Part shown: one piece after another, positions 457 to 14,779 of the stretch
Numbering within the stretch: position 1 is the stretch's first letter
Layout of the letters: every line of letters begins with the position of its first letter
Origin: Acidiferrobacteraceae bacterium
GTDB taxonomy: Bacteria; Pseudomonadota; Gammaproteobacteria; Arenicellales; UBA868
Length of the DNA stretch: 16,257 nucleotides
Assembly: GCA_002713825.1 (NCBI GenBank)
Contig: PAUU01000037.1
Coordinates: 1-16,257 of the forward strand
Reading direction: 5' to 3'
Made by a program: the position numbers and the translations under genes
Notes under the pieces: generated by a model
Databases searched by the model: none
What the model was told of the DNA's origin: nothing
The model's input: the letters and a program-made list of their open reading frames with translations, nothing else

Positions 457-520
457 GTGGACGGAACATATTGTCATATCTGATGCTCCTCCAATTGTAA
501 AAAAACGCACAATACTTAAC

Positions 521-538: not shown

Positions 539-661
539 CATTAACTCAAAATCTGACACACTTGGTGGCTCATCCCGCTTAACGCAGAAATTGGCTACCC
601 ACAGCCATTCAAGATTAATATCCCGCCTTGTCGGATAAAAGTTAACTTTTGAGGTTTTTTG

Positions 662-1246
662 GTGATAACTGAACAAACTCTATCCCGTGATCTCATGGAT
701 GCGGAGATTCTTGCCCTGTGGCCCGACTTACCTTTGGTGCATAGGTTCCTGCTAGCAACTGGACAGCCGCTCAAAGACATAGTCGAAATGGACTGGTCTG
801 ACATCGATGAAGAGACCGGGGTGTGGACGAGAACCAAAAAACAATCTTCAACGGCCTGGGATCTGACCATTCCTGAGTGGGTGTTAACGTGGATTCCTAA
901 ATCAACCCTGGGGAGCGGCGTCTTTCTCGACCCGGATGGCAAACTCCTGACGCCAAACACTGTCTCTATACAACTTGACCAACATGTGTCTTCTATTGGT
1001 ATGGAGGCTGTCACGGCCGAGGATATAAGGAACTATGTCCGGGAGCAGATGACTGAGCTTGGCAATAACGAACTTGCCGCACAGGTCGTGGATCAGGCTG
1101 AGGCTATTCCCACAAGTCGTGTCTCTTTAGAAGACCAGGTGGTAGCCCAGGCCACGCTAATGGAGCGTTGGAGTTATCGCCTACAGGAAATCGTTCTAGA
1201 GGGGGGCACTACGTTGGGTGACACTCCGCTCAGTAATTCCCACTAG
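662..1246 (+). CDS. Degenerate tyrosine-recombinase (integrase) catalytic-domain protein
   Basis: This protein of about 194 residues resembles the catalytic domain of P4-type phage integrases in outline. The segment [20 protein letters not shown] matches the box I region, where integrases have a TGQR..E....W.DID pattern. [15 protein letters not shown] matches the HDLRRT..T.L..LG box [15 protein letters not shown] matches the C-terminal ERWA..L..IV helix. The catalytic residues are altered: the box I Arg is Pro, the box II His is Glu, and no Tyr occurs between the box II region and the final helix where the nucleophile should be; only the box II Arg is kept. The N-terminal arm-binding and core-binding domains are absent. 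GTG at 662 is preferred over TTG at 659 because GAGG lies 7 bases upstream. It is either a decayed remnant or a repurposed DNA-binding protein. The intact reading frame argues for some selection. The remote similarity is judged by eye. Confidence 0.55.
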
Positions 1247-1287
1247 TGGTGCTGCCTTAAAAGTGGGCTAAAGGAGACAAGGTAAGG

Positions 1288-2184
1288 ATGGCAACAAAGC
1301 GCTATCAGGCGATTTGGGATCGGATATGCCGAGGCGAGCGAATTCTGCTGGATGGCGCTACCGGTACCGAGTGTGAACGCCGAGGCGTACCTCAGGTCGT
1401 GAACACCTGGAACAGCGGCGCTGCCCTCTCTCACCCCGAGATCGTCCGCGCGATCCATGAAGAGTACATCGAATGCGGCGCAGAGATCATTATCACCAAC
1501 ACCTTCAGCTCATCGCGTCATTGCCTTCGTTCAGCTGGGATCGAAGATCAATTCGAAGAACTCACCAAAGCTGCTGTCCGGCTTGCCAATGAGGCAAGGA
1601 GCGCTTCCAGCCAGTCCGGGCTGTTGATTGCAGGAGGAATTACGCATTGGATATGGACCAAGGATATACCGTCTATAGAAGAGCTTGAAACCAATACCCG
1701 TGATCAGGCCATGCTGATGGCAAGCGGGGGATGCGATCTCATCATGCTTGAGATGCTGAGCCACATCGACCGCTTGCTTGCCTGCGTTGACGGAGCCAAG
1801 GCAAGTGGATTGCCGGTCTGGGCGGGTGTGTCGGCAAAACCGATAGATGGGAGGATGTGCCTTTTGGGCGGCGAACCTTTAGAAGACGCGCTTGTCGCGC
1901 TTAAAGAAAAAGACGTTCCTCTTATCAATATCATGCACACTGAAGTCGACCATATAGACGCGTGTCTCGATATCCTAAAAACTCACTGGCAGGGCGCAGT
2001 CGGGATCTACGCACACGTCTGTCAATTTAGTAAAGACGATACGACGGCGAAATTCGACGATATGATCTCTCCCTCAGACTATGCCCAAGTATCCAAACGT
2101 TGGATGGATCAGGGTGTGCAGCTGATCGGCGGCTGCTGTGGCGTTCGCAAGGAGCACATCTGCGAACTGCGGCAGGTCGTCTGA
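1288..2184 (+). CDS. Homocysteine S-methyltransferase family protein
   Basis: Enzymes of this family move a methyl group from a donor (S-methylmethionine, betaine or a corrinoid) to a zinc-bound thiol such as homocysteine. The 298-residue protein is full length for a single-domain member. It opens with the glycine-rich LLDGATGTECERRG motif, has the TNTF strand at 70-73, and ends in GGCCG (281-285), whose two Cys are zinc ligands. The third zinc ligand, normally the Cys of an NC motif near residue 217, is not there: the segment reads INIMHTEV, and His217 lies at the expected position, so the site may be His-Cys-Cys. An AAGGAG sequence lies shortly upstream of the ATG. It lies 41 bases after the recombinase-like gene and 54 bases before the oxygenase gene, probably in one transcript. 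Because of the altered ligand, the substrate should not be assumed to be homocysteine. Confidence 0.85.
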   Translation: MATKRYQAIWDRICRGERILLDGATGTECERRGVPQVVNTWNSGAALSHPEIVRAIHEEYIECGAEIIITNTFSSSRHCLRSAGIEDQFEELTKAAVRLANEARSASSQSGLLIAGGITHWIWTKDIPSIEELETNTRDQAMLMASGGCDLIMLEMLSHIDRLLACVDGAKASGLPVWAGVSAKPIDGRMCLLGGEPLEDALVALKEKDVPLINIMHTEVDHIDACLDILKTHWQGAVGIYAHVCQFSKDDTTAKFDDMISPSDYAQVSKRWMDQGVQLIGGCCGVRKEHICELRQVV

Positions 2185-2238
2185 ATACTGATAGCGCGCC
2201 GACACTCCAGGTTACTTAAGCCTCAGAAAAAGCGGTCC

Positions 2239-3123
2239 ATGTTTAGACTGAGCACACAACAAAAATCAGATTTTGATCGAGATGGATTCATCATTGTCGA
2301 ACGGTTGATCGATGATGATACCCTCGAAAGATTGAGAGACAGCTTCGAGGCGCTTTTTCGGGGCGAGTTTGAAACCGGGGTATGCCCTGATGAGGTCAAC
2401 TGGCAGGAAGGCACCGGAGACCCCTCCCTGACCCGACAGATCTGTAATGGCTGGAAAGCGAATATCGCTATCGCCAGCGTGATTACCCGCCCGGATATTG
2501 GTGAGGCTATCGCATCGCTTGGTAACTGGCCCGGCACTCGGGTGATGTCAGATAATGTCCTTTGGAAACCCCCACAAAGCCGACCGCTTGGATATCATCA
2601 GGACAATTCGTTCCTCAGCTGGTATCGCCCCTCTGAGCTCCTGAGCTGCTGGATTGCCTTGGACGAAACCGCCCGGGCCGGCGGTACGGTTGAATTCGTA
2701 CGCGGCTCCCACCGTTGGCATCACACCGAGCCCGAGGGAGAATTCCACGGACCAGAAGATTACCGACGCTATATGGAGATGGCCGCTGACCGACAAGGAG
2801 TTGAGCCCGAGATCGTTTACGTCGAGGTACCGAAAGGCGGTGGCTCATTTCACCATGGATGGACCTGGCATGGCTCAGGCTTCAATCACTCCCAAAACTC
2901 CAGGCGCTCTTTGGTGATGCACGGCATGCGGAGCGATGCGACCTACGACCCTGCGCATTTCCACGAAGGCACGGGGCCGATTTATAGCCGCTATAAAAGG
3001 CTTGGAGACAACACCATGGACGAGAATTACTTTCCCATCACCTGGCGGGCCGATGGCTACCGAACTCCCGCAATCGAGGATTTCTTAAATGAGCAATCAA
3101 CTGATCATAGACAGTTAGGCTAG
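2239..3123 (+). CDS. Phytanoyl-CoA dioxygenase (PhyH) family Fe(II)/2-oxoglutarate oxygenase
   Basis: This 294-residue protein belongs to the PhyH-like non-haem iron, 2-oxoglutarate-dependent oxygenases, which hydroxylate small molecules. The N-terminus (FDRDGFIIVERLIDDDTLERLR) is the typical PhyH opening. The iron facial triad is visible: H120 and D122 in YHQDNSFLSW, and H211 in TWHGSG. The 2-oxoglutarate-binding Arg follows in the NSRRSLVMHG segment (R222/R223). The GTVEFVRGSHRW stretch is the conserved core strand before the distal His. Members act on ectoine, acyl-CoAs, halogenation substrates and quaternary or methylated amines, so the substrate is open. It follows the methyltransferase gene on the same strand and converges on the glutamine-synthetase-like gene. 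A role in demethylating or hydroxylating a methylated amine made available by the BKACE next door is a guess from context. Confidence 0.87.
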   Translation: MFRLSTQQKSDFDRDGFIIVERLIDDDTLERLRDSFEALFRGEFETGVCPDEVNWQEGTGDPSLTRQICNGWKANIAIASVITRPDIGEAIASLGNWPGTRVMSDNVLWKPPQSRPLGYHQDNSFLSWYRPSELLSCWIALDETARAGGTVEFVRGSHRWHHTEPEGEFHGPEDYRRYMEMAADRQGVEPEIVYVEVPKGGGSFHHGWTWHGSGFNHSQNSRRSLVMHGMRSDATYDPAHFHEGTGPIYSRYKRLGDNTMDENYFPITWRADGYRTPAIEDFLNEQSTDHRQLG

Positions 3124-3246
3124 CGACACTTAGTCTTATCGAAGACAACGATTCATCATGCTCATTCTCAATATGGAGATCGGTCTACAGTCTATGTTGA
3201 TGATGAAAGAGATTTTTCAAGAGGACTTACGAGCACAGACTGATAA

Positions 3247-3294
3247 TTTGCAATCCGCAAACTCCGCTAGTTTACGATTGTGTTTAAAACTAGC
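3247..3294. repeat. Two small inverted repeats in the convergent gap
   Basis: The 180-base gap between two convergent genes (3124-3303) holds TTTGC-5-GCAAA at about 3247-3261 and an 8-bp perfect stem GCTAGTTT/AAACTAGC (3266-3273 and 3287-3294, 13-base loop). The stem lies 9 bases past the stop of the glutamine-synthetase-like gene and 143 bases past the oxygenase stop. No T-run follows on either strand, so an intrinsic terminator is possible but not convincing. No gene is seen in the gap. Confidence 0.35.
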
Positions 3295-3303
3295 AAGATC
3301 CTC

Positions 3304-4722
3304 TCAGTAGAGTCGGAGGTACTCGGTAACCTCCCAATCCGTTACTGTCTGATGGTATCTTTCCCATTCGTCGAACTTATACTGAAGGAAAGAGTTTCGC
3401 AGGGGCTCACCTAAAACCTTTAGGGCCAATTCATCGGTTTGAAGCGTCTCCAGCGCTTCCAGCAGATTTCGCGGCAATCGCTGCGCGCCAGATTTTCTGA
3501 TTGCCTCAGAATCCATGTTGTAGAGGTCCGAATTCAACGGTTCGCCTGGCGAATATTTGTTTACAACTCCTTCGGTCATCGCCGCTGACGTCATGGCAAG
3601 AGAGAGATATGGATTCATGCACATATCAGCAGCCCGATTCTCGATACAGAACCTTGTCTGGGGCAACCGCAACATCGCTGAGCGGTTATTGTAGCCATAG
3701 GTCATGTGCGTAGGCGCCCACGTTACCGTGCCACCTTCAAAGCCCCCCACTCGCGGAACCAGCCCGTTATAAGAGTTAACCGTTGGGCAAGCAAGAGCGG
3801 TAAGTGCGCCGCCATGACGCAATAGACCTCCAACAGCGCCATAAACAGGGTCTGCCCACGACCCCTCTGATCCCTCAAATAGGTTCTTATCTGGTTCATT
3901 TATTGGACGCATCGAAGTATTAAGGTGCGCTCCCGAGCGCCAATCTCCAGTCGTTGGTTTAGGCATGAACGTCACAAACATTCCGTGGCGTTTGGCAATC
4001 TCTTTTAGTATTACTCTTAAAAATATGAACCGGTCTGCCATTTGAAGGACATCGGTGTAATGAAAATCAAGCTCAAACTGAGAGTACGCTCCTTCACAAA
4101 CCACATCGTGCATGTTCCAACCTAGATTCTCAACAATATCAATCATTTCTCCAAGGAAGCCCATTGAATCTATTGAGTATTCAACGTCGTAACCAAATGC
4201 CTGCCTACGGGGTCTTAAGCCCGTTCCGCGGGGGTCATCATCAATCGCCTTAACCGGTTGACCATCTTCCCACTTCATCACGATGAACTCAGGCTCGATA
4301 CCTGCATAAACCGAATACCCTTGCTCCGCAATATCAGCGACAGCCCGCTTCAAAAGACTTCGGGGACAAATGTTATATGGACTACCCTCCCACCAAAGAT
4401 CAGCAAACACCCACGCACAACTTGTATCCCACGGGCAAATTACCAGACTATCAAGGTCCGGCAACGGAATCTGATCGGAATCGGCTGGACTGAGTTCAGG
4501 AACAAAGGAGACCGAGTGCACAGCGAATTGTGGTCCTTTACCCATACATAGCAATTCAAAATCACTTATCGGCACAGGTTTTGTCTTTGGACTTCCCAAA
4601 AGGTCAATCCAACAGGAAAAGATATACTTGACGCCCGCTGCTTCTAGCCTTTTTTTCTCTTCTTTAACCCGCTTTGGATCAGGAAGTGCCTGGATAAATC
4701 TCTCTTCAGAATTCTTGTTCAT
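3304..4722 (-). CDS. Glutamine-synthetase-family ligase, GlnT / gamma-glutamylmethylamide synthetase type
   Basis: This 472-residue ATP-dependent ligase joins ammonia or an amine to the gamma-carboxyl of glutamate. The overall pattern, including the WEVTEYLRLY C-terminus, resembles the type III/GlnT branch that contains gamma-glutamylmethylamide synthetase of methylamine users. Visible motifs in order: the N-terminal TKPVPISDFE loop, the metal-binding GIEPEF, a second metal segment CEGAYSQFELDFHYTD, FMPKPTTG, GAHLNTSM (first His of the usual GMHxHxS kept, second replaced by Asn), NNRSAMLRLP for ATP, and the ENR glutamate/arginine pair before NPYLSLA. The ATG at 4722 has only a weak ribosome site. 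It starts 42 bases after the stop of the Lrp-type regulator gene and is probably co-transcribed with it. Next to a guanidine-type hydrolase, a role in capturing released alkylamine as a gamma-glutamyl amide is attractive but inferred; a glutamine synthetase or gamma-glutamylpolyamine synthetase is the alternative. Confidence 0.87.
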   Translation of the reverse strand: MNKNSEERFIQALPDPKRVKEEKKRLEAAGVKYIFSCWIDLLGSPKTKPVPISDFELLCMGKGPQFAVHSVSFVPELSPADSDQIPLPDLDSLVICPWDTSCAWVFADLWWEGSPYNICPRSLLKRAVADIAEQGYSVYAGIEPEFIVMKWEDGQPVKAIDDDPRGTGLRPRRQAFGYDVEYSIDSMGFLGEMIDIVENLGWNMHDVVCEGAYSQFELDFHYTDVLQMADRFIFLRVILKEIAKRHGMFVTFMPKPTTGDWRSGAHLNTSMRPINEPDKNLFEGSEGSWADPVYGAVGGLLRHGGALTALACPTVNSYNGLVPRVGGFEGGTVTWAPTHMTYGYNNRSAMLRLPQTRFCIENRAADMCMNPYLSLAMTSAAMTEGVVNKYSPGEPLNSDLYNMDSEAIRKSGAQRLPRNLLEALETLQTDELALKVLGEPLRNSFLQYKFDEWERYHQTVTDWEVTEYLRLY

Positions 4723-4764
4723 GACGTTACCGTTAAGTGTTTGTAGGAACTGACGAATTAATTC

Positions 4765-5361
4765 TCATCTTAATGCGTCTCGCAATATGAACTGGTTTTT
4801 AAACATCTCGATACCTGACATCACTTCAAATTCTGCAACATCCACCCGGCCGTAAAGTTCATCTTCAATAAATTGGCGAAACTCTCCGTCCGTACCGCAA
4901 ACAACTTCCACTAGCAGATCGAAGCGACCTGCAACCCAAAATATAAACGTAATCTGATCTAACTCAGCAAGACGCTTAGCTACCTGGCGCGGTAGGCTTT
5001 GGGGTGCTACTTTTAGGCCGATCATGGCGTCAACCTTGTAATGAATAGCCATTGGATCGATGATCGCGGCAATCTGAAGAGCCCCTGCCTGTTTCATTCT
5101 TTGCACACGGTTTCTTATTGTCCCTTCAGAAATCTTGAGATGTTTTGCTATTGTCGAAAACGCGATCCGGCCATCTTGTTGTAGGTATTCGAGTATTTTT
5201 CGATTGAGTTCATCAAAAATGGGGTGCTCTGAATCTACCTGGTTGTCATACTCTGACACATCCTCGCCCTGGCCTTTTTGCCTCAAGGCTTTGCTCGACC
5301 GAACCCTTTCCCCACGAAATAACGTGGCATTGTTAGTCGTCAACTTCTCGTCCTCGCGCAA
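4765..5361 (-). CDS. Lrp/AsnC family transcriptional regulator
   Basis: This is a feast/famine-type regulator. An N-terminal AsnC helix-turn-helix is seen at FDELNRKILEYLQQDGRIAFSTIAKHLKISEGTIRNRVQRM, followed by a RAM/AsnC ligand-binding half (IGLKVAPQSLPRQVAKRL, then AGRFDLLVEVVCGT). No ATG precedes the domain, so the start is uncertain. TTG 5361 gives the longest form (198 residues). TTG 5343 has a GAGGA 8 bases upstream. GTG 5259 gives 164 residues, close to the usual family length of about 150-165. The extra 35-residue N-terminal stretch of the longer forms is polar and low-conservation in appearance. The gene is divergent from hypB and lies upstream of the glutamine-synthetase-like gene, so it probably controls both operons in response to an amino acid or amine. 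Two TTTCGCA direct repeats, 20 bases apart (5364-5370, 5384-5390), sit just upstream and could be binding sites. Confidence 0.88.
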   Translation of the reverse strand: MREDEKLTTNNATLFRGERVRSSKALRQKGQGEDVSEYDNQVDSEHPIFDELNRKILEYLQQDGRIAFSTIAKHLKISEGTIRNRVQRMKQAGALQIAAIIDPMAIHYKVDAMIGLKVAPQSLPRQVAKRLAELDQITFIFWVAGRFDLLVEVVCGTDGEFRQFIEDELYGRVDVAEFEVMSGIEMFKNQFILRDALR

Positions 5362-5363
5362 AT

Positions 5364-5390
5364 TTTCGCACCATCGCTACGAATTTCGCA
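5364..5390. promoter_or_regulatory. Direct repeat TTTCGCA in the Lrp-hypB intergenic region
   Basis: TTTCGCA occurs at 5364-5370 and again at 5384-5390, exactly 20 bases apart, about two helical turns. It lies in or just upstream of the regulator start, within the gap of about 190 bases to hypB. Lrp-type proteins often bind phased sites and repress their own genes, so this is a candidate site. The rest of the gap is AT-rich around 5401-5475. No clear promoter hexamers stand out. Confidence 0.25.
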
Positions 5391-5549
5391 GTCATATACC
5401 CTGATAGATTGTTTTTTCAACATAACTGTAGCATATGCCTTGCAGTTTTCATAAACCAAAACTAAAGTGCGTTACAACATTATCAGCCAATCTTGGTCGG
5501 CTTCCTTGAGGTGATCGAGACCGAACAACGAAACAAAGTGGAGAGTCCC

Positions 5550-6491
5550 ATGTGTGGAGTGTGTGGTTGTAGCAGTGAGAATCTAACCGTGGAAAGTTCA
5601 GCAGTCACCAATGGCAAAGGGAATTCCTCTAACCGGAATCACCATCATCGCCCTGAAACCCAGCACAACCATGCCGATCTACGAAGTCATTCTCATTCGG
5701 GGGCACCATCAACCGATGAGGAAGACCCCTCTCGCAGCGAACATATTCATGTAACGCGACACCAGAACTTAGGGCATGGAGATCCAGCACTTATCGAGAT
5801 CGAGCAGGATATTCTTCATCGCAATTCACAATACGCCGAAGCGAATCGAGTCCTCCTCAATCAGAAACGAGTTCTGTGCCTTAACTTAGTCTCTAGTCCA
5901 GGGTCGGGTAAAACCACTTTATTAGAGAAAACAATAAATGCTTTAAATGACTCCGGACAGATCTACGTTATTGAGGGCGACCAACAGACCTCGAATGATG
6001 CAGACAGGATTCGGCAGACTGGGGCCGTTGCTGTACAAATCAATACGGGCAAGGGGTGTCATCTTGACGCACATACCATCGGACATGCTTTGGATGACTT
6101 GAGAATCGAGCCCGGCGCTTTGTTATTTATTGAAAATGTCGGTAACCTGGTATGTCCTGCCAGTTTCGATCTCGGTGAGCGACATAAAGTGGCGCTTCTA
6201 TCAGTCACTGAAGGAGAAGATAAGCCAGAAAAATATCCCGATATGTTCGCCGCTGCGAGCGTTATGCTTGTAAACAAGATTGATCTGCTTCCCTACGTTG
6301 ATTTTGATCTAGATCGATGCATCCAACATGCTCGTGAAATCAATCCGGGCATTCATGTGATCACATTGTCTGCCCGAGACGGTGAAGGAATGAATGAATG
6401 GTTGGACTGGATTTCTGCCGAGCAGGGATCAATTACGGATCAAGTCTTACCTCAACCCCAATCTACATTGTCGCAACGACAGCACGCATAG
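5550..6491 (+). CDS. hypB: Nickel insertion GTPase HypB
   Basis: HypB is a SIMIBI-class GTPase that delivers nickel with HypA to a target enzyme. The ATG at 5550 is chosen because the protein then begins with the HypB signature MCGVCGC (nickel-binding CxxCxC) and a GTGGAG/GGAGAG ribosome site lies just upstream; a longer in-frame start at 5493 adds 19 residues with no family match. From Met 5550 (313 residues) the features are: the Cys motif at 2-7; a His-rich stretch at about 31-75 for nickel storage; Walker [10 protein letters not shown] at about 115-123; EGDQQT; the metal-site GKGCHLDA at about 167-174; ENVGNLVCP at about 195-203; NKID at 242-245 and SARDGEG for guanine recognition. It is followed 41 bases later by hypA and then two ureohydrolase genes. 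No hydrogenase or urease gene is in view, so the nickel client is most likely the ureohydrolase. Confidence 0.95.
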
Positions 6492-6532
6492 TCCGGAGCC
6501 AACAACACAATTACTCATCAGGCATATGTGAA

Positions 6533-6904
6533 ATGCATGAACTCACAATAGCGCGGAGTTTGATCGACTTGGCTTCCGAATACGCCGAAGAAAACCAAGC
6601 CCGAGCCATTGATCACATCTTTGTACGACTTGGAGTCCTATCTGGAATGCTAAGGCCACTGCATTTTTGTTTCACATCAGCAGCTAGAGGGACTATTTGC
6701 GAAGGGGCAAAACTTGATATTGAAGAGGTGGCGGTGACCGTCGAGTGCTCCCACTGTGGCCAGGTAGGCTCTCCAGTAAACCAATATAGTCTGCGGTGTC
6801 CTAATTGTTTTTCCAATACGGTCAAGATTGTGACGGGTAATGAAATGCAGTTGGTCAGCATCAAGGTCATAGAAAACTCGGATGATCATCGACCCCTTTC
6901 TTGA
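6533..6904 (+). CDS. hypA: Nickel metallochaperone HypA
   Basis: HypA binds one nickel through its N-terminal MHE motif and works with HypB in nickel transfer. The 123-residue protein starts MHELTIARSLIDLA, with His2 and Glu3 as the nickel site, and carries a zinc ribbon of two CxxC pairs (CSHC and CPNC) in the C-terminal half. The length is that of ordinary HypA (about 113-120) with a short polar tail. The ATG at 6533 is forced by the MHE motif, because nickel is bound by the free N-terminus; the longer in-frame start at 6398 overlaps hypB and has no family match. The ribosome site is weak, so translation may be coupled to hypB, which ends 41 bases upstream. Confidence 0.95.
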   Translation: MHELTIARSLIDLASEYAEENQARAIDHIFVRLGVLSGMLRPLHFCFTSAARGTICEGAKLDIEEVAVTVECSHCGQVGSPVNQYSLRCPNCFSNTVKIVTGNEMQLVSIKVIENSDDHRPLS

Positions 6905-7005
6905 GTAACAGCGTTTTGTAGGAAATTATCGAAAAAACGGTTGGAGAGCGGGCAGTGGGATTTCTCTCCTCATAACCCATCATCACCCAATAGACAGGCA
7001 ACCCA

Positions 7006-8067
7006 ATGGCAGATCAACCCAAATGGGAATTCGTACCACATCAACACAAGGGCCCGGTCCAGCAGAGCGGGAAAGACGATCATATTGTTTCACCAAAATT
7101 ACATAACGGTGCATTCAAGTCAGCCGGGCTAACAACCTTTATGGGTGCTCCTTATTGCCCGCCTGAGCGAGAGGCAATCCGCGCCATGGATGCCCATGTC
7201 TGTTTTCTCGGCGTACCCTGGGACCAAGGACAAATGGTACGGGCTGGCACCTCACAAGGTCCGCAGGGTTTGAGAGAGGCAACGACACAGTACTTTCCAT
7301 ACATGTTCGAATATGATGTTGATCTAATGGAATTTTTCCGGCCAGTGGATTGTGGCGACATTCCTGTTGTTCCTGGTAATAACGAAAAAAGTCACGACTA
7401 CATCTATCAATACATAACTGAATGTTTGGAAGGCGGAGCTAAAGTCATTCTCTGTGGGGGTGACCACTCGGTACCAATACCAGGCTCACGAGCACTTTCT
7501 GACTTCCATAAGTCAGGAAAGATCGGCTACCTCCATGTCGACTGTCACTTGGACTCTGCACCAGACTGGGACGGGAATCCAAATACCAACTGCTCCGGAC
7601 CCGCACGGGCTTTTGATCTTCCCAACTGCGATGGCAGTAACATGGCTCATATGGGCTCACGTAATGGGCTTAACCCTAAAGACTGGGTTGATTTTTGGGT
7701 CGATAACAATGTCCGCATGGTGCCGATGCAGGAGATAGTCGATCGAGGAATAGACGCATGCACCAATGAAATTTTTGACATTGCGTGGAAAGGTACGAAC
7801 GGAATTTATTGGTCCTGGGACACCGATTCGCTTGACGCCAGTTGTATGCCAGGAACTACTGCACCTGAAACCTTTGGGATCAAACCGCGTGAAGCTCTGG
7901 AACTGGCCCGAATTGCTGGAACATTCGGGGCAGATGTTTTTGAGATATCAGAATTATGTCCTCAATACGACGTTAGCGACATGAGCACAAAATTAGTTTG
8001 CTGCATGATTTATCACTATTTGGGTAGTCGAGCAGAAACCCTCCGAAACAGCGGTCAGCGTCCGTAG
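7006..8067 (+). CDS. Ureohydrolase (arginase/agmatinase fold), catalytic alpha-type subunit, likely Ni-dependent guanidine-type hydrolase
   Basis: This 353-residue protein belongs to the ureohydrolase superfamily, which hydrolyses a C-N bond of a guanidino group to release urea and an amine. All six ligands for a dinuclear metal site are present: His154 in CGGDHS, Asp179, His181 and Asp183 in VDCHLD, and Asp272 and Asp274 in SWDTDSLD. The usual DAHxD motif is DCHLD here. The long N-terminal segment (about 60 residues before the first core strand) and FPYMFEYDVDL suit guanidine/alkylguanidine hydrolases better than arginase. It follows hypB-hypA and precedes a paralogue lacking metal ligands, the arrangement reported for metformin hydrolase and its dimethylguanidine-hydrolase relative (nickel, alpha/beta complex). 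By that analogy this is the alpha subunit. Substrate choice (guanidine, methylguanidine, dimethylguanidine, metformin) cannot be read from the sequence. The ribosome site is weak (AGG upstream of ATG). Confidence 0.9.
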   Translation: MADQPKWEFVPHQHKGPVQQSGKDDHIVSPKLHNGAFKSAGLTTFMGAPYCPPEREAIRAMDAHVCFLGVPWDQGQMVRAGTSQGPQGLREATTQYFPYMFEYDVDLMEFFRPVDCGDIPVVPGNNEKSHDYIYQYITECLEGGAKVILCGGDHSVPIPGSRALSDFHKSGKIGYLHVDCHLDSAPDWDGNPNTNCSGPARAFDLPNCDGSNMAHMGSRNGLNPKDWVDFWVDNNVRMVPMQEIVDRGIDACTNEIFDIAWKGTNGIYWSWDTDSLDASCMPGTTAPETFGIKPREALELARIAGTFGADVFEISELCPQYDVSDMSTKLVCCMIYHYLGSRAETLRNSGQRP

Positions 8068-8112
8068 TTCAGGCCGAATCGTCATTTAATCTTATTCACT
8101 CACGGTATTCAC

Positions 8113-9138
8113 ATGAACCCAGCAAAAAACTACGATCACCTTTTCTCTCCCCTGGGTGATCCTGAAGATTTCAAAACTCTCGGAGTCATTACTTTCCTTC
8201 GTTCTCCACAGGTATCTATGGAGACAGACGCGTTAAAACACTCTGGCGCCCGGTATGCATTCATGGGCATTCCTTATGACGAAGGCAATGTTGGAAAGCC
8301 GGGCTCCGAAGATGGCGCCCAGGCATTTCGCATGGCGAGTTATGAGTACTTTCCCTACTGGTTTGAGTATCAAGTCGACCTCGAAGGCCACTGTGTAGAC
8401 TGCGGCAATGTGAGGATACCGAAAGTTTCTCCCGAATTAGCACACGAGCGGATCTATCGAGCAGTTAGAGAGGTGCTTCGATCTGGGCTGATCCCCATCA
8501 TTTGTGGAGGCGACCATTCAATTTCGATCCCGGCGTCGCGCGCACTCTCTGATCATATCGGCGAGAATGCTCGGATGGGATATCTTCACCTTGGCGCACA
8601 CCTGGACATGGCAGATTCCTGGGCCGGGGAAAAAATGACAAGCCCTTGCAGCATGGCCCGGATCACTGAGTTACCGAACGTCCATTCGGACAATGTTGCC
8701 CATATTGGTGCGCGGAATTCGATGAATCCAAAAGATCATGTTGAGCTCGCGGAGTCTAGAGGGATTCGCTACTACTCCATGCGAGAGGTTTTAGATCGTG
8801 GCATCGCTCCTGTCGTCGGAGAAGCTGCCGAAAAAATCTGGGACAACACAGCGGGGCAATATCTCAGCATCAACATGAACGTCATGGATGCCTCAGCTGC
8901 TCCGGGAGTCACCGCGCCCGAACCTGGTGGTTTGGAATCGAGAGAAGTCATGCAGCTCGCTACTCTACTTGGCGAAAAAGGAACGCCCAGCGTTATCGAG
9001 ATTTCTGAACTGAGTCCAGTCTATGATGTTAGCGATACAACTTCAAAACTTGCTGCTTGCATCATCCTGAGACTGATGGCCGCTAACTGCAAGGAACGCG
9101 GGGAGATCGTCGAGCAATCGATCCGAAGGGGTGATTGA
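8113..9138 (+). CDS. Ureohydrolase paralogue lacking metal ligands, probable non-catalytic beta subunit
   Basis: This 341-residue protein is a clear paralogue of the preceding gene: shared segments include CGGDHS with SRALSD, YLHxxxHLD, PKD, MREVLDRG, ISELxPxYDVSD and APE. Three of six metal ligands are lost: the first Asp of the DxHxD motif is Gly161 (GAHLD, keeping His163 and Asp165), and both Asp of the SxDxD motif are Asn254 and Asn256 (SINMN). His135 is retained. Such a protein should not hold a dinuclear centre. The rest of the fold is intact, with no frameshift or stop, so it looks selected for structure rather than decaying. It lies 45 bases after the alpha-type gene and is probably co-translated. 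The known parallel is the metformin/dimethylguanidine hydrolases, where only alpha subunits carry metal ligands and beta subunits complete the oligomer; a regulatory role is the alternative. Confidence 0.9.
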   Translation: MNPAKNYDHLFSPLGDPEDFKTLGVITFLRSPQVSMETDALKHSGARYAFMGIPYDEGNVGKPGSEDGAQAFRMASYEYFPYWFEYQVDLEGHCVDCGNVRIPKVSPELAHERIYRAVREVLRSGLIPIICGGDHSISIPASRALSDHIGENARMGYLHLGAHLDMADSWAGEKMTSPCSMARITELPNVHSDNVAHIGARNSMNPKDHVELAESRGIRYYSMREVLDRGIAPVVGEAAEKIWDNTAGQYLSINMNVMDASAAPGVTAPEPGGLESREVMQLATLLGEKGTPSVIEISELSPVYDVSDTTSKLAACIILRLMAANCKERGEIVEQSIRRGD

Positions 9139-9348
9139 TTCGCTTAGCACTTCTACTGTGCTCTATCCTTAGCGAGATTTAGAAGATCCGCCCACTCGGC
9201 CGAATTTTTCATGTTCCTGGAACTGAGGGGCAATGCGCGCTTATTCCTTTACCACACAAGTGGCCCCTCAGTTCCGAGCTCATCAGGCCTTTTTTCAAAA
9301 TACGAAAAGACCTAGTACACGAATAACTCAGCGATCTTAATCCCCTGA
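9139..9348. other. Convergent intergenic region with hairpins
   Basis: This 210-base gap separates the ureohydrolase operon from the convergent monooxygenase/RidA/NodB operon. It holds a small AGCAC/GTGCT hairpin (9146-9162), the 12-bp inverted repeat at 9219-9275 described separately, and a run of six T at 9290-9295. I see no open reading frame with a ribosome site. Confidence 0.6.
9219..9275. terminator. 12-bp perfect inverted repeat, candidate bidirectional terminator
   Basis: GGAACTGAGGGG (9219-9230) is matched exactly by its reverse complement at 9264-9275, with a 33-base spacer; one inner C-G pair extends the stem. It is midway between two convergent operons, where a bidirectional terminator is expected. 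A run of six T begins 14 bases after the stem on the plus strand, so it is not a textbook intrinsic terminator. The long spacer also allows a mobile-repeat remnant as an alternative. Confidence 0.45.
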
Positions 9349-10254
9349 CTAGGCCAAACCGGCGTCTTTCAGCTCAGGGATGGGGCCATCGTAGTACGGT
9401 AATTTATCTACTCTAGGCGTCCAGCTGCCGTCATCGATGCACTTCTGGATGTGCGCGGTGATTTCTTCCATTTTGGCAAACCATACATTTCCTTCAGATC
9501 GGATGTCTTCGATCATCTGAGCCATACGATCACACCTCGCCAGCCGACCGCTAACAAAAGGATGCCACACAGTTACCCACAGTCCTCCGTACTTATGCAT
9601 AGCCCTGAACTCCGACATAAAGACGTTCATGGCCTCGTCTGGAGACTTGATCGGCATCATATAGTGCATATCCGGGGCATGGGTGTAATGCGGCCAATCA
9701 TCCATTCCCCAGTGGCTGGGTAATTCGATCACGCTACCTTTTTCTGTTTCCAGAATATATGGCACGTCGTCACCCATCAAACTTGCGTCATACGAAAAAC
9801 CCTGCTCAATCATGTAATCGATTGAATACTTCGAGTAGTTGTATAGGGGCGCTCTCCATCCTCGAGGTTTTTGACCAGTCATTTTCTCAATAACCGCAAT
9901 CTGCCTCTCGAACCAATAAAGCTCGTCCTCCGGGGAGAGTTTATTGGGGTTCTCATGAAGGTATCCATGCGCCGCGATCTCGTGACCTCCTTCCAGAATC
10001 ATCTCGACAAGATGCGGATATCTTTCCATGCACCAAGCTGGATAGAAAAATGTCTGCTTGATCTCCGCGCGCTTATAGACTTCAAGAATACGAGGTATTG
10101 CGATCTCGTCATACTTCAGCCAAGACATGGTTGAGAGCATCGTCGGAGCCCGCTCACGATGCTCAAGGTGCAAAATGCTGTCTGTATCAATATCAAAAGT
10201 TATGGCACAAGCGCACTTAGCGCCATCTGGCCAGGGGACAGGGTTACTGATCAT
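9349..10254 (-). CDS. NodB-type polysaccharide deacetylase family hydrolase (PgdA/PuuE-like)
   Basis: The 301-residue protein has the NodB deacetylase fold and no signal peptide, so it should be cytoplasmic. Motif 1 is TFDIDTD (Asp21, Asp23, Asp25 region) in place of TFDDG. Motif 2 is HGYLHENP, with His96 and His100 as metal ligands. Motif 3 is GWRAP (Arg134). Motif 5 is VWHPFVSGR with His231. The HGYxHENP form is shared with the Helicobacter PgdA-like and allantoinase PuuE-like subfamily, in which several members cut cyclic imides, ureides or amides rather than peptidoglycan. AAAAGGAGGA lies just upstream of the ATG at 10254. It follows the triple-RidA gene by 46 bases and is the last gene of the diiron monooxygenase operon. 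Context therefore suggests hydrolysis of an amide or ureide made from the oxygenated substrate. Confidence 0.88.
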   Translation of the reverse strand: MISNPVPWPDGAKCACAITFDIDTDSILHLEHRERAPTMLSTMSWLKYDEIAIPRILEVYKRAEIKQTFFYPAWCMERYPHLVEMILEGGHEIAAHGYLHENPNKLSPEDELYWFERQIAVIEKMTGQKPRGWRAPLYNYSKYSIDYMIEQGFSYDASLMGDDVPYILETEKGSVIELPSHWGMDDWPHYTHAPDMHYMMPIKSPDEAMNVFMSEFRAMHKYGGLWVTVWHPFVSGRLARCDRMAQMIEDIRSEGNVWFAKMEEITAHIQKCIDDGSWTPRVDKLPYYDGPIPELKDAGLA

Positions 10255-10300
10255 TTTTCCTCCTTTTAATTAGAAACATGCTCTGATCGTGAATAATGGA

Positions 10301-11542
10301 TTATTTAACTGCAACACAATCGGCTTGAAACAACAGTCCGGATTTTGGCAATTCATGGACTCGCACTGGAGTAATTGCTGGGTGACTATTTGGACAGATC
10401 TGGGCCCAGGCCTGACACGCCTGATGGAAACGGCCCTCAACTTCACTATCCTCAGCGACAATAAACAGGTTCAACTTAACTACATCATCTAAGGAGGCAT
10501 CTGCTTCCGCCAATACCTTTTCCAGTCTGTGGAATACTTCCTTGACCTGCTCCGGGAAGTCGTCTGGGAACAGAACCAGACCATCAGATCCCAACGCAGT
10601 CTGGCCCCCCACGTAAATCTCCCCATCAGCCATGACGCCATCTGAGAACACAGAAGGCTGATAGCGGCCGCCCAGCTCTCTCGGTGCCAGGACCTTAGTG
10701 TCTGAATCGACAATTGCCATTGCGTCAATTTCGAGATCCAATCCCGGATACAGAAGATCAACTGCAAACGCCGTGATTACTGGTGCAGGCCCCTTTATGT
10801 AATCCTGCGCGACCTCCATGATCCTATCGACGAATGCCTGACCGGTACTAGGATCTGCGCTGTCATATTTAAAACAAATCTTGATCCGTAGGAGATCCGC
10901 AAATGACGCACCGGCGTCAGACAGTATCTGGCCGATGTAGTCATAAATATTCCGGGTCTGAGCATCAAGGTCCCCAACATGGACCGGGCTACCGGCCTTG
11001 TCCGCGGAAATCTGTCCGCCAACAAAGATGCGCCTACCAATTTTCCATCCCTGGGAGAGTGGTACAGCAATACTCCAGTCCCAACTGCCCTCCGGCATGA
11101 TCCGTTGACGGCATCGTCTTGACTCTCCTCTGAGCGCTACACCCTCTATCTGGATCAGCTGGCCTTCGTAAGGCATGCCCTTTGCCCGGACCGCCGTGGC
11201 GGCCGGACCCGGATCGGGAAAATACTCCAGACGCACCCTGGTCATATCTTCCCAGAATTTGGTGGCGTCCTGATCCTCTCCATCAAATACATAGTAGGTA
11301 TTGAGTCGAACAAGATCCTCCAGTCCCATGTTTAACGAGGATAAGCTCGCTGCCATGTTCTCAAAGACATTGCGTGTCTGGGCCGCAATATCTCCGCGAT
11401 TCAGTACGGCACCATCTTTATCCAGCGTTTGCTGACCGCTGATAAACACCTGATCCCCAACCGCGACCGTATTTGAAAATACCTGCTCACCTCTCCAGCG
11501 CCACATTCCATCAGATGGCAAGTGATTTTCTCTATTTGTCAT
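10301..11542 (-). CDS. Triple-domain RidA/YjgF fusion protein
   Basis: RidA proteins are about 130-residue homotrimers that hydrolyse imines/enamines or act in N-compound catabolism. This 413-residue chain holds three tandem RidA units at about 22-137, 157-278 and 297-412, each with an (I/V)(S/G)GQ strand (FISGQQT, FVGGQIS, YVGGQTA) and a following amphipathic helix (AAQTRNVFENM, DAQTRNIYDYI, PEQVKEVFHRL). The trimeric Rid state could thus be built from one chain. The Arg that marks canonical imine deaminases (ARS before the VxVxxLP segment) is absent in all three: the aligned segments read GPAATAV, GPAPVITAF and HPAITPV. Canonical 2-aminoacrylate deaminase activity is therefore unlikely, and the protein fits the catabolic Rid branches better. 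GAGGA precedes the ATG by about 11 bases. It follows the tmoF-like gene after 109 bases and probably acts on the product of that monooxygenase. Confidence 0.88.
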   Translation of the reverse strand: MTNRENHLPSDGMWRWRGEQVFSNTVAVGDQVFISGQQTLDKDGAVLNRGDIAAQTRNVFENMAASLSSLNMGLEDLVRLNTYYVFDGEDQDATKFWEDMTRVRLEYFPDPGPAATAVRAKGMPYEGQLIQIEGVALRGESRRCRQRIMPEGSWDWSIAVPLSQGWKIGRRIFVGGQISADKAGSPVHVGDLDAQTRNIYDYIGQILSDAGASFADLLRIKICFKYDSADPSTGQAFVDRIMEVAQDYIKGPAPVITAFAVDLLYPGLDLEIDAMAIVDSDTKVLAPRELGGRYQPSVFSDGVMADGEIYVGGQTALGSDGLVLFPDDFPEQVKEVFHRLEKVLAEADASLDDVVKLNLFIVAEDSEVEGRFHQACQAWAQICPNSHPAITPVRVHELPKSGLLFQADCVAVK

Positions 11543-11651
11543 CTCTATTTTTCCTCATTTGGATTAGTCGCCAGCTAACGAATTGCCGTCGATCGAGCCG
11601 GACTCTTTTTTCATCACTTATAACTCTCAAAGAAAATCAGTAATGAGTAAA

Positions 11652-12674
11652 TCAAAAAAAGCGATCGTAGTGAAGTTGTTCGACCGGAACCCCTCTTTCG
11701 AGCACAAGGTGCCGCCTTACCGCGTCGACCATAGGTGGGGGACCAGCTAGGTAATACTCGTAATCGCACACCGCATCTTCTAGTTGAGTTTTCAAAAAGT
11801 CATGCACCATTCCCGTCGCGCCAGCCCAGTTGTCGCTCTGCGCAGGCTCAGACACAACCGGAATGTATTGATCATCCGGACGGAATCCACTAATCGTATT
11901 GAAATAGCTCTTATCCACAACATCTCTACAGTTGCGGGCACCATAGTAAAGAATTGGGTCAGGTTTTACGTGTTCGAGTTGCGTTATTCCGTGCAGGATC
12001 GAGACCATAGGCGCCAACCCTGAGCCTCCCGCAATACAAATGGCCTGCCGTTGAGACTCCGACTTGAGATGCGCAATACTGTACGGTGCATCAATCGTGA
12101 TGTTGAGGTTTTTCAATGAATCTTTGAACAATACTTCTGAAACTGCGCCGCCCACTACCTTCTTTATTTGAAATAACCACTTTCCTTCATCGTTCGCTAC
12201 ATTGCTCATCGAGTAACTACGAGGTCCATGAACGTCGGGCAGACTGATCTTTGCATACTGACCAGGAAGAAAATGGGCCGGCCCAACCGAATCGAAACGA
12301 AATTCCCACAGATCATGCGTGAGCTTTTCAAATGAGTGAAGTGTTGCCGGAGTGTTCCCCGGGATGTTTTTGGGTGTGTATTGGGGATCCAGTTTGAAAT
12401 CGACGACGCAGTCCGACTGGGGTCGACTAATGCAAGCAAGATGTTTGTTCTTTCTTTTATCAGAAACGCGAAGACCAGCCGTGTCCTCAAGATCATCGGC
12501 CACTATTCCCTGCACTAGCTTGTACTTACAACTTCCACAACCCCCCGCGTTACACTCATAAGGCACTCCGATACCGGCGCGCAGAATTCCCCCGAGCAGC
12601 GTGTCGCCGCAATCAATCTTGATACTCAGGTCTGTGTTTGCAAAGGAAACCTGGTGCGTGCTCGAGCTCTTCAA
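11652..12674 (-). CDS. tmoF-like: Diiron monooxygenase NADH reductase, TmoF-like (2Fe-2S/FAD)
   Basis: This 340-residue flavoprotein passes electrons from NAD(P)H to the Rieske ferredoxin of the monooxygenase. The N-terminal plant-type 2Fe-2S domain has Cys41, Cys46, Cys49 and Cys81 (ECNAGGCGSCKYKL ... LAC). The FAD-binding RSYSMSN is at 152-158. The nucleotide domain has AGGSGLAPM around 215-223 and AGPPPMVDA around 310-318. The protein ends in YDRFF, typical for this reductase class. The start is TTG at 12674, since an in-frame stop lies two codons upstream and no ATG is available before the ferredoxin domain. No clear ribosome site is visible, so translation may be coupled or weak. It follows tmoE after 89 bases. 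Confidence 0.92.
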   Translation of the reverse strand: MKSSSTHQVSFANTDLSIKIDCGDTLLGGILRAGIGVPYECNAGGCGSCKYKLVQGIVADDLEDTAGLRVSDKRKNKHLACISRPQSDCVVDFKLDPQYTPKNIPGNTPATLHSFEKLTHDLWEFRFDSVGPAHFLPGQYAKISLPDVHGPRSYSMSNVANDEGKWLFQIKKVVGGAVSEVLFKDSLKNLNITIDAPYSIAHLKSESQRQAICIAGGSGLAPMVSILHGITQLEHVKPDPILYYGARNCRDVVDKSYFNTISGFRPDDQYIPVVSEPAQSDNWAGATGMVHDFLKTQLEDAVCDYEYYLAGPPPMVDAVRRHLVLERGVPVEQLHYDRFF

Positions 12675-12763
12675 GGTTTAGTGCTCTTAAACTAGATTTA
12701 GTATAGTTTTTGCGTGCGGATCTTTCCTGCTCGCCCTTCCGAAATGGCAGTCTCAACCCTACC

Positions 12764-13750
12764 CTAAAGTTCCAGACTACGATGGAATGCTTCCATTCTT
12801 GAGATTGCCGCATCGGAAGCGCCCTGACTCTCGGGGAGGGCAGCGCAGTAGGCGGTGATCGATTTAGTAGCTAATGGCGTCCAGTCGTCAATCCACGATC
12901 GAATAACCGCTTTGTTTTCTTCGCGGGCATCCGTACAGAATTTAACAAGGCTAGTGCTCCAGCGTCGCGAACGGTCGCTGTCGCGAAGCTGGTTGTCTGC
13001 AAGTGCAGCAAGCAGAGGATCGCGAAAAGTTCGCGCAGTACTAGCAAGTTCTCTAAGGGTTTCATCTGCGGCTACCTTCGCGACCAAATTGTTGGCAACG
13101 AAGCTTTCCCCCCAATCGTAAGAAATCAGGGTTTTCTCCATCAACTCGCGCAGACCCTGCAGAGGAGCAGCACTCTCCCAGTGCTTTCGCTCGTTTTGAC
13201 CGAAGGCTCGACCCGGGTGCGCGATCTGTAGCTCCCGAGTCCTATAAGCAACGCGTTGCAGCCAGCGAAACTCATCCCCCTCCTGAAATCCCGCGCAGGC
13301 CGTGATGGTGCTTGCCGGGGCAATTTGCAAGATATATGCGGCTGTCATCTGCAAGGTAACCTGGAGATAGCGCCTTGGGGTATACAGCGTTTCAAGCGTA
13401 TCCAACCACTCTGGCGCGAGATCGGCGTCATGCCCAATCTCATTGTGCTCGTTCAGAACGCCGTCTATATATTCCTCCTGACTGTCCTGACTTCTTGTGT
13501 AAACACGGTAAATCAACGCGTCTGGGTCTCGGAATTCCTCCCAATCATCATGCTGTAGAGGACTATCGAAAACATGCTTGCGATACCACTCATTCATCGA
13601 CAAATCAGGCGCAGGGGATAATTCATATGCCGAGTCACGATGGCGATTTCGCGTCTGTAGATTGGTCGTTACAATCTCGTACTCGCTAGGCCTTCTCTTA
13701 TTCTTGGCGAGCTTGCTCCAGGTCTTCATTCCTGTCACTTTGTTACTCAT
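12764..13750 (-). CDS. tmoE-like: Diiron monooxygenase hydroxylase beta subunit, TmoE-like
   Basis: The 328-residue protein is the beta subunit of the (alpha-beta-gamma)2 hydroxylase of toluene-4-monooxygenase-type enzymes. It matches TmoE from memory over most of its length, with landmarks KTWSKLAKNKRRPSEYEIVTTNL at the start, FDSPLQHDDWEEFRDPD, LYTPRRYLQVTLQM, IAPASTITACA, YRTRELQ, SYDWGESFVANNLVAK and RRWSTSLVKF. It keeps the structural fold but has no diiron site of its own, as usual. An AAGAAGAG sequence lies 8 bases upstream of the ATG at 13750. It follows tmoD by 80 bases. Confidence 0.95.
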   Translation of the reverse strand: MSNKVTGMKTWSKLAKNKRRPSEYEIVTTNLQTRNRHRDSAYELSPAPDLSMNEWYRKHVFDSPLQHDDWEEFRDPDALIYRVYTRSQDSQEEYIDGVLNEHNEIGHDADLAPEWLDTLETLYTPRRYLQVTLQMTAAYILQIAPASTITACAGFQEGDEFRWLQRVAYRTRELQIAHPGRAFGQNERKHWESAAPLQGLRELMEKTLISYDWGESFVANNLVAKVAADETLRELASTARTFRDPLLAALADNQLRDSDRSRRWSTSLVKFCTDAREENKAVIRSWIDDWTPLATKSITAYCAALPESQGASDAAISRMEAFHRSLEL

Positions 13751-13830
13751 AACTAAACTCTTCTTCTAGTCCGATGGTTTCAATGGATGCAGTATCTAAG
13801 TTCCATAACTCAAAGCATGCGCCCCGATCT

Positions 13831-14127
13831 CTAGCTAGGAGTCGCAATAAAACGAATCTGATCTGATTCAACTCGAATAAACCCTTCCATTGAGGGCATA
13901 TTTGCTTCGATATCCGCCCGAGTAACATCCCTTCCGAGCATCTCTGAGACGGTTTCAAATCTAATGACACACTCTTTTTCGACCTTGATTCGAAAATAAG
14001 ATGCGTGCTCTTCCACTTCGATTTTTCGACTACTGTTGTCTTCGTAGACAGCTTCCACAACCGCTTCGCCAACCTCGCTATTTTTAATTACTGGTCCGAC
14101 AAAGCGGTTCTCTTGAGCATTTGACAT
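13831..14127 (-). CDS. tmoD-like: Diiron monooxygenase effector protein, TmoD-like
   Basis: This 98-residue protein is the cofactor-less regulatory (effector) component that docks on the hydroxylase and tunes oxygen activation. It carries the typical NRFVGPVIKNSEVGEAVVEAV opening and the EMLGRDVTRADIEANMPSMEGFI helix. The usual length is about 100 residues. ATG at 14127 is chosen because AGGAGG lies 7 bases upstream; the longer in-frame form starting at 14190 has no such site and adds residues unlike the family. The start overlaps the tail of the tmoC-like gene by 44 bases. Confidence 0.93.
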   Translation of the reverse strand: MSNAQENRFVGPVIKNSEVGEAVVEAVYEDNSSRKIEVEEHASYFRIKVEKECVIRFETVSEMLGRDVTRADIEANMPSMEGFIRVESDQIRFIATPS

Positions 14128-14476
14128 GAAACAACCTCCTAAGATTTTTTTCCCGTTCTGGAAGCGCCACCAAGATTGACTCTCCCTCAATCTTGATTGG
14201 ATAACTGATCAAAGATGTCCCCGTCGGGTTCACCCCATCGCCAGTTAAAACATTAAATTGCCAAAGATGAGCTGAACAGGTTAGTACACAGTTCTCTAAC
14301 TCACCATCTGCAAGGGAAAACTCCTGATGTGGACAAGTAGGATCAAATGCCCGAATCTCTTGACCGGGGGAATGAACGATCAAGACTTCGGTATCACCAA
14401 CATCAAAGACCTCCATCTCTCCTTCCCAAACGTCATCCAAATCACAGACTTTAAGGTACTCAAGATCTTCGCCCAC
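14084..14476 (-). CDS. tmoC-like: Diiron monooxygenase Rieske ferredoxin, TmoC-like
   Basis: This Rieske 2Fe-2S protein carries electrons between the TmoF reductase and the hydroxylase. The Rieske ligands are Cys48 and His50 (CPHQE) and Cys67 and His70 (CSAHLW), with the usual spacing. VCDLDDVWEGEMEVFDV near the N-terminus matches TmoC. The start GTG at 14476 has GGAAAG 6 bases upstream and lies 2 bases after the tmoB stop. At 130 residues it is longer than the roughly 112 of TmoC: the last 14 or so residues lie in the 44-base overlap with tmoD and look unrelated to the family, which suggests that an earlier stop was lost. They include two extra Cys. Confidence 0.93.
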   Translation of the reverse strand: MGEDLEYLKVCDLDDVWEGEMEVFDVGDTEVLIVHSPGQEIRAFDPTCPHQEFSLADGELENCVLTCSAHLWQFNVLTGDGVNPTGTSLISYPIKIEGESILVALPEREKNLRRLFHVKCSREPLCRTSN

Positions 14477-14478
14477 AG

Positions 14479-14739
14479 CTAACTTTCCGCATAAATCTGC
14501 AGCGCTTCCATTTGGATAAACTTTGCGTCGGCTACCGTCAGACTGCTCTCCAACGGCTCCCGGGCTCCATGGACTTTGGCTCGCAAGGTGGTTCCTTCAG
14601 GAAAAGGAGCCACGAGCACTCCTACGATTTGATCAACTGCGACCTGAATAACTTCTTCTATCGTATTTTCATCCTCGACGACGATAACTTTATAGCCGTA
14701 ATCACCCTGCACGTTGACGGCGAGCGGAAACTGCGCCAT
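14479..14739 (-). CDS. tmoB-like: Diiron monooxygenase hydroxylase gamma subunit, TmoB-like
   Basis: The 86-residue protein has the size, operon position and general pattern of TmoB, the ubiquitin-like gamma subunit of toluene-type hydroxylases: a short FPLAV start, a VIVVEDENTIEEV strand-helix, a VAPFPEGTTLRAKVH core and an AD..F..ME.L end. Sequence identity is visibly low, as usual for gamma subunits, so the call rests largely on position between A and C. The ATG at 14739 has GGGAGAAAG shortly upstream. The gap to the tmoA stop is 40 bases. Confidence 0.88.
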   Translation of the reverse strand: MAQFPLAVNVQGDYGYKVIVVEDENTIEEVIQVAVDQIVGVLVAPFPEGTTLRAKVHGAREPLESSLTVADAKFIQMEALQIYAES

Positions 14740-14779
14740 ATCTTTCTCCCACGATAGTTATGCTTCGAAACTAAACGGC

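Follow-up and report, generated by a model that had tools for sequence, protein, structure and literature searches.

A probable nickel alpha/beta ureohydrolase complex with a metal-site-degenerate subunit in an Acidiferrobacteraceae bacterium

Here we ask why a DNA stretch of 16,257 nucleotides from an Acidiferrobacteraceae bacterium (contig PAUU01000037.1, positions 1 to 16,257; the whole stretch is called the window below) carries two ureohydrolase genes side by side, one of them with a full set of metal ligands and the other with half of that set lost, and what the two products might do together. The two genes are the following:

7006-8067, + strand: alpha subunit, catalytic ureohydrolase with all six metal ligands; 353 amino acids; pocket residues Q76, C180, T284-T285-A286, N195, W188 and E316
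8113-9138, + strand: beta subunit, metal-site-degenerate ureohydrolase (G161, N254, N256); 341 amino acids; N-terminal segment MNPAK-x-(Y/F)-x-HLFSP

A first-pass annotation of the window had reported two adjacent paralogues at these places, and both frames were confirmed on the + strand, where they stand in tandem with a gap of 45 bases and match the Pfam family Arginase (E = 2.5e-51 for alpha and E = 3.4e-62 for beta). The six alpha ligands that it listed proved exact by alignment: H154, D179, H181, D183, D272 and D274, the set HDHDDD, align with H158, D183, H185, D187, D276 and D278 of MetCa, the alpha subunit of the metformin hydrolase MefH, and these are the published metal ligands (PMC11399263, PMC11271267; these and the other papers cited are drawn on for the parts consulted). 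The six corresponding places of beta read H135, G161, H163, D165, N254 and N256, with three ligands kept and three lost, the latter being the Gly161, Asn254 and Asn256 that had been annotated. Alpha also has an Asn (N195) at MetCa position 199, where it replaces the usual arginase His, and the role of this Asn is treated in PMC11271267.

Comparison with solved proteins gave the alpha subunit of MefH (MetCa) as the closest match of the window alpha (E = 4.8e-175, 585 bits) and its beta subunit (MetCb) as the closest match of the window beta (E = 8.8e-146, 488 bits). A quick tree of 92 rows, which flags long-branch joins around P0114, L057_x13 and P0115/P0118, shows an alpha clade and a beta clade joined to each other (98), the window alpha grouping with the alpha of the dimethylguanidine hydrolase DmgH (locus L014) and the window beta with DmgH beta. 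A careful alpha tree likewise placed the window alpha within the alpha clade with DmgH and the Pseudomonas mendocina MefH (L097). Both subunits hence lie inside the heteromeric clade, and the placement outside it that the first-pass annotation had named as speaking against its proposal did not occur. Single-chain models of the two proteins (mean predicted local distance difference test, pLDDT, of 80.3 each; 22 and 25 sequences) were compared with solved structures by Foldseek, and the top six matches of the alpha model were alpha chains of 8snf, 8x3g, 8ryi, 8snk and 8sp2, the top ten of the beta model being beta chains of 8x3g, 8sp2, 8snk, 8ryi and 8snf. Directly upstream of the pair, with 101 bases between the end of hypA and alpha, are two genes for nickel insertion:

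5493-6491, + strand: HypB nickel-incorporation GTPase; TIGR00073 over its cut-off; likely start at about 5550 (20th codon), as the PRK10463 match begins at residue 20
6533-6904, + strand: HypA nickel metallochaperone; TIGR00100 over its cut-off, from residue 46 of a longer frame; start inside the 6398 frame

Because sequence matches, trees, predicted folds and the adjacent hypB-hypA genes point the same way, the pair very probably encodes a heteromeric nickel complex of the DmgH/MefH type, in line with the nickel guanidine-type alpha/beta complex first proposed for it. This kind of enzyme has been known since 2024, when it was characterised from Aminobacter and Pseudomonas metformin degraders (PMC11399263, PMC11271267), and the window pair adds another member to a small family from which an enzyme against the drug metformin recently evolved. 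DmgH was described from Aminobacter niigataensis DSM 7050 together with a Hyphomicrobium homologue (Sinn et al. 2024, PMC11399263), and the window pair resembles it in the six-ligand alpha, the degenerate beta, hypBA upstream, the N-terminal segment of beta and the Asn at position 199, at identities of 66.8% for alpha and 61.6% for beta. The differences concern the pocket, where positions 184 and 288-290 (MetCa numbering) read C/TTA in the window and S/STS in DmgH; the beta subunit, which in the window keeps His135 and His163 with three ligands lost, whereas the Aminobacter beta reads R-G/S-Q-D-N-N with five lost by our alignment (four of six according to PMC11399263, five according to PMC11271267); and the neighbourhood, with an ATP-binding cassette (ABC) transporter, a glutamine-synthetase-like (GS-like) ligase and an Lrp regulator as against the NCS1 permease, TetR, HupE and GcvT of Aminobacter. 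MefH, also called MetCaCb or MfmAB (PDB 8ryi, 8x3g and 8snf; P. mendocina plasmid pMET-2), gives the best fold and sequence matches and has by homology the same architecture, but its Asn288 and Ser289 are absent from the window alpha. The window beta has lost fewer ligands than the solved betas.

We infer the complex, its stoichiometry, its nickel and its substrate as follows. HypB and HypA would load two Ni2+ ions into alpha only, and beta, being unable to hold metals, would use its N-terminal segment as a cap over the alpha pocket and keep alpha in the complex, which by analogy may be an alpha2beta4 hexamer. The likeliest reaction would convert N,N-dimethylguanidine into urea and dimethylamine, and the released urea would then pass to urease, which the window genome carries. 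Taken as a whole, we consider it likely that the window encodes a nickel alpha/beta complex with dimethylguanidine as its likeliest substrate.

The choice of substrate depends on alpha, which sets the specificity of these enzymes and in which residues 184 and 288-290 matter, being S and STS in DmgH and C and NSA in MefH (PMC11399263). Examination of positions 80, 184 and 288-290 in an alignment of 158 rows (the window, 37 locus proteins and 120 further proteins, with some genes represented by two loci and six proteins of beta type) gave Q/C/TTA in 47 rows including the window, T/C/TSC in 36, N/C/TTA in 16, Q/S/STS in 14 and Q/A/STS in 5, the other 40 rows having rarer states or being beta-type or partial. 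In the careful alpha tree, which comprised 49 rows, left out the pocket columns and ligands and was rooted on three betas, the T/C/TSC rows form one clade together with two N/C/TTY rows (100/100), the STS rows form another with MefH (96/98), and the window, L033, L034 and L042 form a branch of their own (98/97; hereafter the window subclade). The remaining Q/C/TTA rows make up a grade of unresolved order around those clades, with four N/C/TTA rows at the base, and the position of the window alpha among the Q/C/TTA lines is unsettled in both trees; in the quick tree the betas of the window subclade, with P0116 and P0120, branch before the other 24 core-clade beta rows (98). Judged by residue states at the published specificity positions, the alphas fall into three main pocket types, Q/C/TTA, T/C/TSC and Q/S-A/STS (the type of DmgH), which mostly go with different transporters.

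Dimethylguanidine, but not metformin, is reported to be hydrolysed by a Hyphomicrobium pair with 70% and 68% identity to DmgH (PMC11399263). The four full-length alphas in our set at 69.5-71.5% identity to DmgH (L010, P0009, P0020 and P0026) are all Q/C/TTA, the L010 pair being 71.2% and 68.3% identical to DmgH, and on the same scale STS rows lie at 74.4% or above and TSC rows, counting the partial ones, at 68.0% or below. Because all full-length alphas in its identity band are Q/C/TTA, we infer that the tested Hyphomicrobium enzyme would share the pocket type of the window, which makes N,N-dimethylguanidine the best guess for the window pair and the main substrate towards which we lean. A search for the Hyphomicrobium sequence in 8 genomes of the genus of L010 matched only the genome of L010 itself.

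The genes around the pairs were surveyed by tblastn of reference genes (E cut-off 1e-20; ABC components counted from 40% identity upwards; flanks of differing length). Among the 12 Q/C/TTA loci, nine carry at least one Tau/NMT1-type ABC component, six a GS-like ligase, six urease genes and none a Pot-type ABC, and hypB stands beside the pair in eight. The 17 T/C/TSC loci have PotD in 15 cases, a GS-like gene in one (39%), and neither a Tau/NMT1-type ABC nor urease in any; the two loci that lack PotD (L031 and L032) break off within alpha, and no more than two positions give their type. Five of the six STS loci, all Aminobacter, carry an NCS1 permease, HupE and GcvT, none of which was seen in the sixth (L012), and NCS1 and HupE are also present on the metformin plasmid; in Aminobacter NyZ550 the NCS1 permease has been proven to import metformin (PMC13390362). 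Alphas of the Q/C/TTA and T/C/TSC types occur together in at least four genomes, OFTM97 (L011, L025), CO36386bin_3 (L006, L029), G050 (L035, L038) and G066 (L046, L055), and in the first two the importer typical of its pocket type lies near each pair; no importer was seen at the Q/C/TTA pair of G050, and one is present in L007, which covers the G066 pair at greater length. Because two paralogous complexes with different pockets coexist in one cell, these data suggest that the Q/C/TTA and T/C/TSC complexes may act on different substrates, and pocket types with different transporters offer a small, testable set of enzymes for the substrates of the family.

One region, G050:C45:84198-91522 (L042 and L043), holds two alpha/beta pairs of different pocket types with their alphas about 5 kb apart. 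The T/C/TSC loci (including L019, L020, L022-L029, L036, L038, L039, L055 and L058-L060) represent a well-supported alpha subfamily with a Pot-type ABC, for which PMC11399263 and PMC11271267, in the parts consulted, give no substrate test. The split of transporters by pocket type was not met in the published texts consulted, the supplementary trees of these two papers aside, and we make no claim that it is unpublished.

Several observations weigh against a dimethylguanidine-hydrolysing nickel complex in the window. Four Q/C/TTA loci have no hypB beside the pair (L007, L013, L073 and L042, the copy at L042 belonging to a second pair). The structural models are of single chains, and the N-termini of both subunits have pLDDT values under 50; these are the segments that sit at subunit contacts in the published structure (PMC11271267). 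The pocket type of the Hyphomicrobium enzyme comes from identity figures only, its exact sequence not being in hand, and three partial or disrupted alphas of the same band (P0091, P0092 and P0096) have Q and C but are unreadable at 288-290. The window subclade has changes near the pocket, namely Trp269 beside the ligand strand and Thr289 in alpha, and in the beta lid a Phe for Tyr22 and a loop two residues shorter, and given these changes a somewhat different substrate is possible. The urease of the window genome sits on another contig. Finally, Rfam gave no match to a guanidine riboswitch in the window (E up to 1) or in seven further loci (L041, which lies on the window's own contig, L006 and L044, which come from one contig, L007, L008, L011 and L021), where two tRNAs were the only matches at gathering scores.

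These subclade changes bear on the alternative that survives best, according to which the same nickel alpha/beta complex is tuned to another N,N-disubstituted guanidine, perhaps the product of a neighbouring oxygenase cluster; a different substituted guanidine had been suggested, with reserve, in the first-pass annotation. The separate branch of the window subclade, its subclade-only alpha residues, the Phe and shortened loop at the beta lid, and the association of pocket types elsewhere in the family with different transporters all favour it, as does the fact that in three of the four subclade loci the pair adjoins a cluster encoding a diiron monooxygenase, a triple-Rid protein and a PuuE-like hydrolase. 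However, positions 184, 288-290 and 80 are as in the other Q/C/TTA proteins, the type that would include the tested dimethylguanidine hydrolase, and L042, the member of the subclade with a pair and no cluster, has the same lid. We regard this alternative as unlikely, though not negligible. The cluster lies downstream of the pair on the opposite strand, convergent with it, as follows:

9349-10254, - strand: polysaccharide-deacetylase/PuuE-like hydrolase, last gene of the convergent monooxygenase row; nearest solved protein 3rxz
10301-11542, - strand: triple-domain Rid (YjgF) protein of the monooxygenase gene row
11652-12674, - strand: 2Fe-2S/flavin adenine dinucleotide reductase of the monooxygenase gene row
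12764-13750, - strand: toluene-monooxygenase-type diiron beta
13831-14115, - strand: effector of the diiron system
14084-14476, - strand: Rieske ferredoxin of the diiron system
14479-14739, - strand: gamma of the diiron system
14780-16210, - strand: alpha of the diiron system, continuing past the stretch to about 16327 of the contig

Beyond the window the same contig continues with an Lrp gene and a Tau/NMT1-type ABC transporter. L005 shows the same gene order over the length of its stretch, and so do L006/L044 except for the reductase, which did not score there. Among the 109 genomes of the order, the triple-Rid gene was found in 5 (E up to 1e-60), alpha in 11 (E up to 1e-100) and both in 3, two of these three belonging to one genus. 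The cluster as an obligate partner of the pair was rejected, each occurring without the other: G017 (L068; 93% complete) has the whole cluster and the ABC transporter, but neither alpha nor, at E up to 1e-100, a GS-like gene; G002 has triple-Rid and no alpha, its contig ending inside the Rid gene and a GS-like gene standing elsewhere in the genome; and no such cluster was seen at 9 of the 12 Q/C/TTA loci, some of whose contigs are short. The large monooxygenase subunit was found in 6 of 14 chosen genomes, in one of them (G067) with identities of just 52% and 49%. When 398 genomes of the phylum and 369 of the class were searched for the triple-Rid gene at E up to 1e-100, the single hit in each set was the window genome itself, and a protein search at E up to 1e-60 matched at least 506 proteins, so that the gene is not rare in metagenomes. 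Because the cluster also occurs without the pair, and because two of the three co-occurring genomes are of one genus, a pathway shared by the pair and the oxygenase cluster is a lead only. One form of it, which we think improbable, is that the diiron enzyme, the triple-Rid protein and the PuuE-like amidohydrolase would break down a larger natural nitrogen compound imported by the ABC transporter and so supply the nickel enzyme with N,N-dimethylguanidine or a closely similar N,N-disubstituted guanidine. If true, this would tell where dimethylguanidine comes from in nature, a source that had remained elusive (PMC12508155) and to which the cluster offers a concrete lead.

Two further observations concern these surroundings. 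At L041:6532-8612, after the ABC transporter, come a VanA-type Rieske oxygenase and a copper amine oxidase, possibly for amine or demethylation chemistry tied to the same nutrient, and at L006:1484-2677 a gene for a GdmH-like guanidine hydrolase is clustered with the pair and the oxygenase genes.

The nickel alpha/beta complex that we prefer gives beta a part to play despite its degenerate metal site, and the divergence of its gene bears on this. Compared with the nearest relative (L005), beta shows a nonsynonymous proportion of 0.040 and a synonymous one of 0.751, and alpha 0.061 and 0.786, with synonymous sites near saturation and some ambiguous bases in L005. Because nonsynonymous divergence is far below synonymous, the degenerate beta is maintained as a protein, is not decaying and is not a pseudogene, which bears out the earlier description of its reading frame as intact. 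In an alignment of 125 rows (the window beta and 124 proteins), two keep all six ligands (P0115 and P0118) and are not beta; the positions equal to 161 and 256 are lost in all 123 rows that remain, of which 13 retain Asp at position 254 and 16 show the HGHDNN pattern of the window, and P0113 and P0114 have lost 161 and 256 only. The beta clade is described as having three to five of its six ligands replaced (PMC11271267), and the window beta, with three, fits. It also retains the conserved N-terminus MNPAK..HLFSP.

That beta is instead a decaying copy, with alpha working alone or as a homo-oligomer, could draw on the three lost ligands and on one locus, L013, whose alpha has no beta that we could find on its 10.8 kb contig. 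Against this stand the low nonsynonymous divergence, the loss of 161 and 256 in every beta row with the rest of the protein kept, and the finding that neither subunit was active alone in the tested homologues (PMC11399263), and we hold it to be very improbable.

As to the single loci, the alpha of L013 (L013:4733-5800) is intact and of the Q/C/TTA type, lies near a Rieske oxygenase frame on a contig where hypA and hypB were not found either, and comes from a metagenome-assembled genome that carries a complete pair as well (L009). The beta of L021 (a Methyloceanibacter marginalis contig; 8959-9985) came out of tblastn in two pieces and may be broken or misassembled. In L007, alpha (9989-11056) and beta (12920-13954) are about 1.86 kb apart; urease genes follow downstream, and hypBA was not detected in the vicinity.

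Metformin as the substrate is hardly credible. Four residues, including Cys184 and Ala290, together gave DmgH some metformin activity (PMC11399263), and the window alpha has these two, but it reads Thr-Thr and not Asn-Ser at 288-289 (QCTTA over positions 80, 184 and 288-290, as against QCNSA in the P. mendocina MefH); Cys and Ala are moreover the common state of the surrounding grade and so no sign of metformin use, and metformin activity was about 20,000-fold lower in a pair with 71.2% identity to MetCa (PMC11271267). No tie of the window pair to metformin was seen. As regards MefH itself, its Cys184 and Ala290 are likewise the common state of the surrounding Q/C/TTA grade, and because of this, among the four residues of the metformin switch, those at 288-289 seem to be the more recent.

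A GdmH-type guanidine hydrolase or an agmatinase/guanidinobutyrase, duplicated by chance, shares the superfamily, and the best generic NCBIfam matches are agmatinase, but all of these are below their cut-offs, GdmH scores 168 bits with alpha and 142 bits with beta as against 585 and 488 for MefH, and the GdmH-like row L006_x2 and the two rows that group with it (L012_x4 and L024_x9) branch outside the alpha + beta clade in the quick tree, so that we give this reading next to no weight. GdmH/guanidinase (7esr, 7oi1 and 9fek) resembles the window pair in being a nickel ureohydrolase, activated by nickel chaperones (PMC11399263), and differs from it in its separate clade, its much weaker match and, according to the literature consulted, its single gene.

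Two more genes lie upstream of the pair:

3304-4722, - strand: GS-like ligase; nearest solved relative glutamate-methylamine ligase
4765-5361, - strand: Lrp/AsnC-type regulator, divergent from hypB

The solved matches of the GS-like protein are led by glutamate-methylamine ligase (240.6 bits), followed by a type III ligase (226.4) and glutamine synthetases (211.8). Its outright assignment as a gamma-glutamylmethylamide synthetase was rejected, its TIGR03105 score of 360.7 being below the cut-off of 469.6. A weak phage-integrase-like frame, below the Pfam cut-off, lies at 659-1246, and positions 2-3123 hold a partial BKACE-family gene, a homocysteine S-methyltransferase and a PhyH dioxygenase, which stand in the same order in L005.

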